DNA of 57,895 bases from Cyanobium sp. T1B-Tous (GTDB lineage: Bacteria; Cyanobacteriota; Cyanobacteriia; PCC-6307; Cyanobiaceae). Positions 30,290-32,807 of this stretch are shown here, one piece after another. Both the position numbers and the translations under genes were made by a program. Within the stretch, counting starts at the first letter, position 1; each line of letters begins with the position of its first letter. The stretch is from NCBI RefSeq assembly GCF_024345475.1, contig NZ_JAGQBE010000011.1:1-57895 (forward strand), in the 5' to 3' direction. The notes under the pieces are model-generated. The model did not search any database. It was given only the letters and a program-made list of their open reading frames with translations, and was not told the DNA's origin.

Positions 30290-30586
30290 TCAACTGATCG
30301 GCCGAACGCGCTTGACCGCCAGGCCCGCTTCGGTGGCCGTCACCCCAGCCAGGAGCAGTAGGCCGACCAACCCCACCAGTTGGTTCTGGGCTTCCGCGGC
30401 AGCCTCGGCGTTCTGCGCCAAGAGGGCACCGGCAACGAACCAGCTGGTTGCCAGGGCTGAGGTGATCCAGTAGGCCTTCCAGCGCCGCTGGTAGAGGTAG
30501 CCGGCCCCCAGGCCCGGCACCACATTGAGGACAACCGCCACCCAACCGGCCGAGGCGGCAAGGATCTGTTCTCGGGTTGGGGTCAT
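30290..30586 (-). CDS. Small conserved membrane protein
   Basis: Protein of 98 residues with about three hydrophobic helices: residues 10-32 (SAGWVAVVLNVVPGLGAGYLY), 38-58 and 68-88. The sequence NVVPGLGAGYLYQRRWKAYW resembles the Gly-rich first helix plus loop of small cyanobacterial TM2-like proteins. Function is unknown. It precedes the Rrf2 gene on the same strand. Confidence 0.72.
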   Translation of the reverse strand: MTPTREQILAASAGWVAVVLNVVPGLGAGYLYQRRWKAYWITSALATSWFVAGALLAQNAEAAAEAQNQLVGLVGLLLLAGVTATEAGLAVKRVRPIS

Positions 30587-30725
30587 GGATTGAACCAGTC
30601 AAACCCATTCTAGCAACAGGAGTTTGTGCGTTCCCACCTGCACTCACCCGCTACCAACGCGGCAGAGGAGGAATCACAGAAAAGCGATGACGCCTGTGCT
30701 GCCCATTGCGGCCTCGGTCTTTGAA

Positions 30726-31055
30726 TTATTGCGCGCTCAACTTTTTCTTGAGGGCATCGCAAATTCTTTCGCGGTACTCGTGCAAGTCGGAGACCGAAGC
30801 AAGATCCACGAGCGCTGGATCCACGTCGTCGTGAAACTCAACTTTTTTGTTGCCGCCAAAAAAGTGAAATCTCACAATGGACTTTAGGGTGTCCTGGTCC
30901 AATACAATGTCGAAATGGGTTTTCGAGTCCCTTTCGGTGAGCCTGGTTGGGTCAATGACGGTTGAGCATATGTCCCTGACAATGCGCAGCCCCTCAATTT
31001 CTTCGGAGGTGGTCTCTATCCTTAGGTCCATCGTGGTTCCAGTTATGAAGCGCAC
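30726..31055 (-). CDS. Remnant resembling the C-terminal part of HsdR-N-type restriction proteins
   Basis: Frame of up to 109 residues (ATG at 31031 more likely than GTG 31055). ETTSEEIEGLRIVRDI, then a conserved arginine-aspartate step, FDIVLDQD, IVRFHFFGG and a C-terminal helix match from memory the last ~100 residues of proteins with a type I restriction HsdR-N domain, where this part follows the nuclease core. The catalytic part is absent: a stop codon lies just upstream in frame. The DNA is clearly AT-richer than its surroundings, pointing to horizontal origin. It is either a truncated leftover or a stand-alone module. Confidence 0.6.
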   Translation of the reverse strand: MRFITGTTMDLRIETTSEEIEGLRIVRDICSTVIDPTRLTERDSKTHFDIVLDQDTLKSIVRFHFFGGNKKVEFHDDVDPALVDLASVSDLHEYRERICDALKKKLSAQ

Positions 31056-31211
31056 GCTAGCGCTAAATTCAGCGTCTTTCTAATCTTTTTAAGGACTGTC
31101 ACCGGGCTATCTTGGTGGTATGCACTGCAGGATGGTCGTGAAGAGCAACCCGTGGGCATTCGGGCAGTACCCACCCACCAAGCGATGTCAGAGGGCGCAG
31201 CAAGCAGCGTG

Positions 31212-31388
31212 ATGAGCAACCCCCTCTGGATGCTGGTGCCTTGGTTGGTCTTTGCCCTTGCAGCAGGAATCAAGTTTTGGCGTCTGACCTCCCTGTTCCG
31301 CAAACACCTGCTGGGCATCCCCTCGAGAACCGAACGCTTGAGGCAGATGCTGGAGCGGATCTGGGAGAAGGATCAGCAGGTGGTGTGA
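31212..31388 (+). CDS. Membrane microprotein A of three-gene cassette
   Basis: 58 residues: an N-terminal membrane helix (about 5-22, WMLVPWLVFALAAGIKFW) and a basic, helical tail ending LRQMLERIWEKDQQVV. The next gene encodes a sister protein of the same layout (shared F-R-K/R, LERIW-x-K and final Q). The ATG at 31212 is chosen because it makes the two equal in length. An ATG at 31185 or GTG at 31152 is possible. The stop TGA overlaps the next ATG (TGATG). Function is unknown and I recognise no family. Confidence 0.68.
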   Translation: MSNPLWMLVPWLVFALAAGIKFWRLTSLFRKHLLGIPSRTERLRQMLERIWEKDQQVV

Positions 31389-31567
31389 TGGAGCACATCA
31401 ACTGGGGGTACCTCCAACTGGGCCTGGTGGCCCTGGCGTTTGGCGGTCTTCAGGTGTGGTGGATCAGCAGCGTGTTCAGGCGACGCGACCTGGCACGACC
31501 CTTGAGCGATGGGGAGTTCCGCAAGTCCCTGGAGCGGATCTGGACGAAGCGTTCTCAGCAGGAATGA
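31388..31567 (+). CDS. Membrane microprotein B of three-gene cassette
   Basis: 59 residues, one membrane helix (about 6-26, WGYLQLGLVALAFGGLQVWW) and a cytosolic tail FRKSLERIWTKRSQQE that repeats the pattern of microprotein A (RQMLERIWEKDQQ). The two are probably tandem duplicates that have diverged. It is coupled to its neighbours on both sides (TGATG with A, ATGA with the lipoprotein gene). Confidence 0.72.
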   Translation: MEHINWGYLQLGLVALAFGGLQVWWISSVFRRRDLARPLSDGEFRKSLERIWTKRSQQE

Positions 31568-31818
31568 CGCGGTTTGCCCTGTGCCTTGGGTTGCTGTTGC
31601 TGGGGGGATGCGTCATCCAGGCAGGCGAGTCGGGATCCAGTGCCTGCAGGGATGGCGGCAGCGCTTGCGCTGCCGCCGAAACGCCACCGGGAATGCGCCA
31701 AGTGCTCAAAGGTCACAGGATCCTTAGGGTCCGCTGGATCGAGAAGAGCAACAAGGAATCAGGGGCACCAGACATCGGCCTGAGGGCGGAGTGGGAACCC
31801 GTCACCGAGAGGCGTTAA
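31564..31818 (+). CDS. Small lipoprotein of three-gene cassette
   Basis: 84 residues with a lipoprotein signal: basic n-region, hydrophobic LCLGLLLL and lipobox LGGC (Cys16). The mature part has two further Cys (ACRDGG, SACAAA), a linker and a beta-like segment HRILRVRWIEKSNKE. No family was recognised. The start overlaps the microprotein B stop (ATGA). The cassette would place two inner-membrane microproteins next to a lipoprotein, suggesting an envelope complex; this is inference. A perfect 10-bp hairpin lies inside the gene. Confidence 0.7.
   Translation: MTRFALCLGLLLLGGCVIQAGESGSSACRDGGSACAAAETPPGMRQVLKGHRILRVRWIEKSNKESGAPDIGLRAEWEPVTERR
31654..31677. repeat. Perfect 10-bp inverted repeat inside lipoprotein gene
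   Basis: GGCGGCAGCG (31654-31663) and CGCTGCCGCC (31668-31677) with a 4-base loop CTTG. Very stable as RNA hairpin. It encodes the GGSACAA part of the linker and has no T-run, so it is not a normal terminator. Confidence 0.85.
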
Positions 31819-31996
31819 CAGCGGCTCCACGGTGGTGGATCGAAGTCCCGTTCGGCATGCAAGGGGCATCAGTCCTCAACGCGCTCCCACAGGCTTTCTG
31901 GGTGCCCCAACTCTTGCGCCCAATCGTGCGCCAAAACCGTCCTACGGGGCTTCTCCGTGAGCCTCTGCCCCCCCTGCCTCATCTGCGCTAAACATC

Positions 31997-32023
31997 AAAA
32001 AACCCAGGCCAGGCCTGGGTTTT
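31997..32023 (-). terminator. Terminator between tRNA-Ala and lipoprotein cassette
   Basis: AACCCAGGCC (32001-32010) pairs with GGCCTGGGTT (32012-32021) around a single-base loop, flanked by A-run and T-run, so it can act in both directions. On the minus strand it ends the tRNA transcript with six T residues. On the plus strand it may end the 31.2-31.8 kb cassette. Confidence 0.85.
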
Positions 32024-32028
32024 AAGGA

Positions 32029-32101
32029 TGGAGCCAAGCGGATTCGAACCGCTGACCCCCTGCATGCCATGCAGGTGCTCTACCAGCTGAGCTATGGCCC
32101 C
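32029..32101 (-). tRNA. tRNA-Ala(GGC)
   Basis: 73-nt cloverleaf without encoded CCA. The acceptor GGGGCCA pairs with TGGCTCC and shows the G3-U70 pair diagnostic of tRNA-Ala. The anticodon stem CCTGC/GCAGG encloses loop ATGGCAT with anticodon GGC (reads GCC). The T-loop is GGTTCGAATCC. Its 3' end points toward the AT-rich accessory genes at 30.7-31.8 kb. Confidence 0.96.
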
Positions 32102-32189
32102 GATAGGACGCGTTGGCAACGAACCGCTGGTCGATTCGCTTGGCCCTGGGGCCTTGCCTGGCGCTGAGTGAGCTTACAACGCCGTGGGG

Positions 32190-32807
32190 TCAGACCTGGC
32201 GCCAGACGGCCACCAGCTTGCCCTGCACGGTCACCTGGTCGGCGGGAAGCACGATCGGGTCGTAGGCGGGGTTCGCGGCCTCGAGGGTCACCGTGGCCCC
32301 GTTGCGATGAAAGTGTTTGAGGGTGGTGCCACTGCCGGGCACCAGGGCGCTCACGATCGTGCCGGCCTTGAGGCGACTGGGGTCGGGCACGGGCTCCAGC
32401 AGCACCACGTCGCCATCGGCGATGTGGGCATCCACCATCGAGTCGCCATTCACGGTGAGGGCGAACAGGCCGCGGGTGTCGAGCACGGGTGCCAGGTCGA
32501 GGTGTTCCTGCACGTCGTCGAAGGTTTCCACCAGGCCCCCGGCGGCCACGGCGCCCAGCACCGGGATGCCCCCGGCCATGCCCCCCAGCAGCTGCAGGGT
32601 GCGGGCCTGGCCTTCCTGCCAGGTGATCCAGCCCTTTTGCTGGAGGTGGCGCAACCGGCTCTGGATCGGGGCCGGGGAGCGCAGGCCCATCGCCTCCATC
32701 ATCTGGCGGATGGAGGGGCTGTGGCGGTGGGCGCCGATGTAGTCAGCCAGCCAGTCGTACAGCTCCTGTTGGGCCGTGGTGAGCAGTTGCTGTTCGGGCA
32801 CCGGCAA
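32190..32807 (-). CDS. lexA: LexA repressor/autoprotease
   Basis: Repressor with an N-terminal winged helix (about 1-70, SPSIRQMMEAMGLRSPAPIQSR) and a C-terminal S24 peptidase domain. The self-cleavage site Ala89-Gly90 (LGAVAAGG) and the dyad Ser123 (GDSMVDAH) and Lys164 (TTLKHF) are present, so the protein should be cleavable, unlike some cyanobacterial LexA proteins that lack these residues. The outermost start is TTG 32807, with GTG 32801 an alternative. No clear LexA box is seen upstream. The SRAP gene, a typical SOS-linked partner, is 3 kb away. Confidence 0.95.
   Translation of the reverse strand: MPVPEQQLLTTAQQELYDWLADYIGAHRHSPSIRQMMEAMGLRSPAPIQSRLRHLQQKGWITWQEGQARTLQLLGGMAGGIPVLGAVAAGGLVETFDDVQEHLDLAPVLDTRGLFALTVNGDSMVDAHIADGDVVLLEPVPDPSRLKAGTIVSALVPGSGTTLKHFHRNGATVTLEAANPAYDPIVLPADQVTVQGKLVAVWRQV

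Follow-up and report, generated by a model that had tools for sequence, protein, structure and literature searches.

Phage morons are accessory gene cassettes that sit between genes adjoining each other in a related phage, have a promoter and a terminator of their own and are expressed in the lysogen. Superinfection-exclusion proteins include small lipoproteins and small membrane proteins encoded on mobile phage DNA, of which SieA of P22 is reportedly a membrane-protein example. Spanin pairs of the Rz/Rz1 type bring together an i-spanin, whose C-terminal domain is periplasmic, and a lipoprotein specified by an overlapping gene. In PMC3952083, Ltp is described as a lipoprotein of S. thermophilus phages that acts in superinfection exclusion, and PMC10872708 gives tycheposons as elements of 4–200 kb with a tyrosine recombinase. 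The cassette described here, which comprises two membrane microproteins, A and B, and a lipoprotein, C, appears by analogy to be like a moron or a superinfection-exclusion cassette in its working. Ltp would be the nearest kind of lipoprotein to C, by role only. The cassette departs from the exclusion proteins in joining a membrane-protein pair and a lipoprotein in one operon, in the absence of C from the phage blocks found, and in sequence, since A, B and C match no known exclusion or defence protein in PADLOC, Pfam or PHROGs.

The cassette lies in the window, the whole stretch of 57,895 nucleotides of Cyanobium sp. T1B-Tous DNA that was analysed, where we distinguish the following features:

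30600–32027, no strand: variable block of 1,428 bp, with 42 bp in its place in genome G014; GC content 57.6% versus 69.4% for the window
30610–30675 (approximate limits), forward strand: probable N-terminal remnant of an upstream zinc-finger gene, ZF; weak match to query positions 19–40, E 6e-4
30726–31055, reverse strand: open reading frame of family c22, flanked by the ZF remnants; found close to B in L096 and L110 as well
31120–31212, forward strand: C-terminal remnant of ZF, a 30-aa frame matching profile positions 66–95 (E 2.4e-6), whose stop overlaps the start of A by TGATG
31212–31388, forward strand: gene A, 58 aa, single-pass membrane microprotein, predicted N-out/C-in
31388–31567, forward strand: gene B, 59 aa, sister microprotein with an LQxWW signature; TGATG overlap with A
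31564–31818, forward strand: gene C, 84-aa lipoprotein with lipobox LGGC and conserved C28 and C35; ATGA overlap with B
31999–32023, reverse strand: terminator-like hairpin behind the tRNA, a consensus match only
32029–32101, reverse strand: tRNA-Ala(GGC), whose 3′ end abuts the block

The initial annotation had described three tiny genes joined by TGATG and ATGA overlaps, and re-translation yielded the same coordinates and junctions; the lipobox LGGC that it read in the third gene is likewise present. A and B are, as it had held, sister single-helix proteins: a search of their own genome aligns them over 45 aa at 43% (E 9.6e-5), and both end in a tail of LERIWxK followed by Q. The LERIW motif in the two tails (window 31350–31370 and 31529–31549) is identical at 19 of 21 nucleotides, which may offer the sister genes a point at which to recombine. 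Purifying selection acts on all three genes, with a pooled pN/pS of 0.40 for A (91 pairs), 0.32 for B (120 pairs) and 0.49 for C (66 pairs); relative to G014, A has changed at 7 of 133 nonsynonymous and 17 of 41 synonymous sites. The presence of homologues of all three in other genera, the purifying selection and the recurrence of the overlaps in other genomes confirm A, B and C as genuine genes rather than products of chance. The initial annotation had named a lack of homologues and of selection, or homologues that never occur together, as what would overturn it; homologues, selection and co-occurrence are what we find. No sigma-70-like promoter was found in 30500–32200, and the tRNA was the only match in an Rfam search. 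The helix is followed by basic residues (K/R) in 42 of 42 A rows and 82 of 83 B rows, so that a positive-inside count predicts an N-out/C-in arrangement for both. The predicted structures of C and ZF are poor, each with a mean pLDDT of 58.8 and with only a β hairpin at 52–79 in the former and the finger in the latter near 80, and were left out of the functional reasoning.

We searched 350 genomes of the same family with profiles built from 23 rows of A, 24 of B and 5 of C. At a cut-off of E ≤ 1e-3 the profiles find A in 154, B in 245 and C in 18 of these genomes; the A and B profiles cross-match and stricter cut-offs were thus set for them, under which the listed best E-values give A in 125 genomes (E ≤ 1e-12) and B in 224 (E ≤ 1e-8). 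Among 197 relatives, the genomes that belong to other families yield A as a marginal match only (best E 0.007) and no B at E ≤ 0.01. A scan of named genomes found 80 B loci, nearly all in Synechococcus, Cyanobium, Vulcanococcus or Prochlorococcus; two 16-residue B matches in Puniceicoccales from that scan look like chance. In a tree of 125 A and B rows a single branch parts the two families (SH-aLRT 100, for 56 columns with quick support only and with A/B labels taken from the same profiles). Judging by their sequences, A and B are old paralogues, limited to the picocyanobacterial family in these scans. The phage collection holds no match to A, B or C; among the viral contigs, too, none was found with C. 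An origin of B on plasmids or lytic phages was dropped, no match having been found. At one locus (L096:9866–11439) a transposase-like ORF separates the two halves of a split B gene. From Prochlorococcus-type to Cyanobium-type genomes, B repeatedly has a small single-helix gene of family c8 as its neighbour (L110, L114, L135 and L149).

Such a distribution bears on a possible explanation that is almost as likely as the phage exclusion we come to prefer below, namely that A and B have a household role in a picocyanobacterial membrane complex, as core accessory subunits or as its regulators, with extra copies moved by recombination and phage capture, C as a passenger and no phage role. A role of this kind suits A and B better than that of optional cargo, because B is near-universal in the family, small Prochlorococcus-type genomes included, and A is common at the counts just given. 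It also agrees with the purifying selection, with the separation of A and B into two old clades, and with the neighbours, such as c8, that B keeps from Prochlorococcus to Cyanobium-like genomes. It sits less easily with the variety of coupled partners (ZF, LprI-like, HNH, TPR-sulfotransferase and C), with the place of ZF-A in phage head blocks and with the fact that several genera have C overlapping A or B.

From the overlaps the initial annotation had deduced strict coupling, fixed stoichiometry and a single complex, and it had proposed a profile search for co-occurrence and linkage. That search does bring out linkage. A and B overlap in at least 16 genomes of six genera, including G014, where B is truncated, and in 7 of the 18 C-bearing genomes, in four genera, C comes immediately after A or B, overlapping its neighbour in six. 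C follows B in the window, G290, G298 and G306 (where C itself is cut short) and follows A in G265 and G276 (overlapping) and in G227 (14 nt after a broken A); in the other C-bearing genomes it lies 0.7–4 kb from A/B or is unlinked. The 15 genomes with a strong C (E < 1e-10) all carry A (E ≤ 1e-12), and 12 of them carry B (E ≤ 1e-8). A TGATG junction stands ahead of 17 of 43 A genes and 42 of 101 B genes, with TAATG ahead of 10 more B genes, where our own rough expectation for such a start junction is about 1 in 16. Strict coupling, a fixed stoichiometry and a single three-part complex are not supported: A, B and C each also occur alone, C is missing from most genomes with A and B, and A and B may stand apart, by 383 nt in L259, by 903 nt with an HNH gene between them in L121, and by 662 nt in L124, where A lies behind B with a nuclease gene between. 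That the linkage of A, B and C is real yet modular, each member being solitary elsewhere, is well supported. A first view of C as unlinked to A and B, taken from four strong C homologues in 197 relatives, was overturned by the coupling seen in 7 of 18 genomes in the 350-genome profile scan.

The partners of A and B are varied. In L124:5712–7041 and L125:5468–6512 B is flanked by an LprI-like gene on one side and a staphylococcal-nuclease/Excalibur gene on the other, each overlapping the next head to tail, the LprI match being under the Pfam cut-off, and in L122:6041–7998 an ATGA overlap joins A to a 591-aa TPR-sulfotransferase gene. One explanation of such couplings, which we regard as unlikely, is that A/B-type proteins escort the export or quality control of a small exported protein encoded next to them (C, the LprI-like protein or a secreted nuclease), the loci being escort–client cassettes. 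The overlaps of B with the LprI-like and SNase/Excalibur genes in L124 and L125, the position of C directly after A or B in 7 of 18 genomes and the secreted look of the neighbours of A in L117, L139 and L147 would all be expected of such cassettes. Many coupled partners, by contrast, are non-exported (ZF, HNH, a response regulator and the TPR protein), most copies lie without an exported neighbour, and the LprI identification has the sub-threshold standing just mentioned.

The initial annotation overlooked that the unit reaches upstream to a split ZF gene, and that this DNA is modular, with copies both in prophage-like blocks and next to tRNA genes. ZF itself is, by its motifs, a putative small DNA-binding-like zinc-finger gene that extends the A-B-C unit upstream. 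It has about 95 codons, overlaps the start of A or B by TGATG in several genomes, and encodes a conserved N-terminal half, QNLRGQ...RGIDPSRRELVGER, followed by a C-x2-C-x13-H-x5-C finger. We found it in 31 of the 350 genomes, directly ahead of A or B in 17 of the 31, several of these being remnants; G265 and G276 have a complete overlapping row ZF-A-C. Against Pfam, ZF yields only YhfH, under the cut-off and in one row (E 0.045), and no nuclease domain, for which reason an identity as a homing endonuclease was dropped. In the phage collection its matches are marginal only, to hypothetical proteins of S-PM2 (beside F-CphI) and S-SRM01. The hypothetical protein S-PM2p178, encoded next to the homing endonuclease F-CphI (PMC6083498), has a C-terminal part similar to the N-terminal half of ZF (37% over 46 aa, E 0.03), and a second phage protein matches that half at 42% over 36 aa (E 0.003). 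The similarity to S-PM2p178 is marginal, and ZF differs in adding the finger and in showing no nuclease domain. S-PM2p178 overlaps F-CphI between psbA and psbD (L326:2024–2653) and may be an unannotated member of the homing element.

A relative of a phage scaffold protein lies beside ZF in eight genomes, six of which have A there too, and among the IMG/VR contigs found with ZF the scaffold gene adjoins in five of five, with A present in four. We call these blocks prophage-like, going by their phage-type structural genes. Their gene order is HTH, scaffold, p2859, ZF, A, a reverse 61-aa ORF and the major head protein. PHROGs names the scaffold and major head proteins in contig L244, and terminase, sigma factor, portal and tail fibre in genomic block L285, which has relatives of the scaffold and major head proteins too. 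In cyanophage PSS2 the scaffold and head genes adjoin without the insert; p2859-ZF-A thus parts scaffold and major head genes that are contiguous in that phage, as an inserted moron would. The window copy differs from a moron in that it forms no such insertion and no phage gene is seen near the cassette, and most A/B copies differ in being chromosomal, outside phage blocks. The 61-aa ORF between A and the major head gene (L244:3752–3937 and equivalents) is conserved in most blocks and runs antisense to the head operon. Elsewhere in the window's own genome, L145 (G000:C94; 901–987 and 6359–7054) has a phage scaffold relative, 71% identical to its L244 counterpart, with a B fragment 5 kb away from it.

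These blocks also bear on a very unlikely alternative, a lysis or toxin module in which A/B would be a pore or toxin and C an o-spanin-like partner or an antidote. Tiny hydrophobic proteins whose genes overlap a lipoprotein gene, and ZF-A in a phage late-gene block, are what such a module might look like, and C has the overlapping gene of an Rz1-like lipoprotein. The predicted topology of A and B is, however, the opposite of that of an i-spanin, the C terminus being placed inside in all 42 A rows and in all but one of the 83 B rows, and for this reason the spanin reading was set low; the toxin reading was set low because B is near-universal. Moreover, the phage blocks found lack C, many hosts keep A or B as a single gene, and the position is in a head block with no lysis gene recognised alongside.

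The second kind of site is represented by the window itself. G014, the closest of the eight relatives examined (LexA 98% identical), matches the window at 92–95% around the cassette, and four further relatives of the same genus have about 2–6 kb of unmatched DNA in the tRNA-Ala slot, which in one of them (L316) includes an AbiEi/AbiEii pair. In another genus (L127) A-B lies 869 nt from the same tRNA. A tRNA is found within 1 kb of 9 of the 29 units with at least two members or with C, broken ones included, whereas the figures are 3 of 95 for single-gene units of A or B and 1 of 26 for ZF units; the Fisher p of 9e-5 is optimistic, as related genomes share sites and the units are partly non-independent. 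Genes for type I methylases occur close to A-B in L113 and L121 and close to the broken B copies in L096; the defence neighbours were chosen by eye. The window block resembles tycheposons and other tRNA-anchored islands of picocyanobacteria in being variable DNA at a tRNA end. It differs from tycheposons, as these are described in PMC10872708, in measuring only 1.4 kb and in having no recombinase, no ORF of the block being long enough to encode one. No integrase and no attachment repeats were found at the block, nor did a repeat search find a tRNA-derived flanking repeat. On its other edge lies c21 (30290–30586), which in three distant genomes of another genus (L117, L139 and L147) likewise adjoins A in divergent orientation. 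Consequently, c21 and A may be long-standing neighbours, and the cassette may have been lost in G014 instead of gained in the window.

Prophage-like carriage, tRNA slots and neighbouring defence genes together make a carrier-protecting envelope function our first choice. We tentatively posit that A, B and C are modular prophage or island cargo, most likely an envelope module that protects its carrier, perhaps by phage exclusion. They would be the surviving intact genes of a small modular operon, ZF-A-B-C, that travels as cargo on changeable picocyanobacterial DNA, both within the head-gene region of prophage-like blocks, in the form ZF-A, and in slots next to tRNA genes, here tRNA-Ala. A and B would be single-pass inner-membrane proteins, paired with each other and with the tail in the cytoplasm; C would be exported, lipidated and act with them from the periplasmic side. 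Jointly they would alter the envelope to the gain of the carrier, for which the exclusion of other phages, or resistance to them, is the most likely means. Two DNA-binding-like modules are seen in ZF, and no nuclease motif is recognised there; this gene, broken here, might regulate the operon or stem from a homing element. Of the functions guessed at earlier (sensor, pore, lysis or defence), the genomic context thus seems to favour defence or exclusion, whereas spanin-type lysis is disfavoured by the predicted N-out/C-in arrangement. Counter to a cargo reading, most A/B genes are single and away from tRNAs, with the 3 of 95 noted above lying near one. A broader formulation, which we consider rather improbable, is an undescribed envelope gatekeeping system common to picocyanobacteria and their temperate phages, in which A/B would form an N-out/C-in gate, C would sense or block on the periplasmic side and a ZF derived from a homing element would control expression, host B being ancestral and prophages and tRNA islands carrying variants directed against competitors.

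The initial annotation knew of no described system of this form, and the databases bear it out: Pfam and NCBIfam return no match to A, B or C at E ≤ 10, PADLOC likewise none at E ≤ 10, PHROGs a single chance-level match to B (E 0.28), and the PDB no relative better than E 0.12 for the B and C profiles. In the literature searches no paper was recognised as a description of these proteins. B-type genes are thus present in about two-thirds of 350 picocyanobacterial genomes, and yet no curated family covers A, B or C; ZF is likewise uncovered by the curated families of Pfam and PHROGs. Even if A and B have a household role, a near-universal uncharacterised membrane microprotein merits a knockout. 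If the exclusion reading is true, the cassette would be a concrete, testable envelope defence common to host and temperate phage, in hosts that are among the most abundant photosynthetic organisms.
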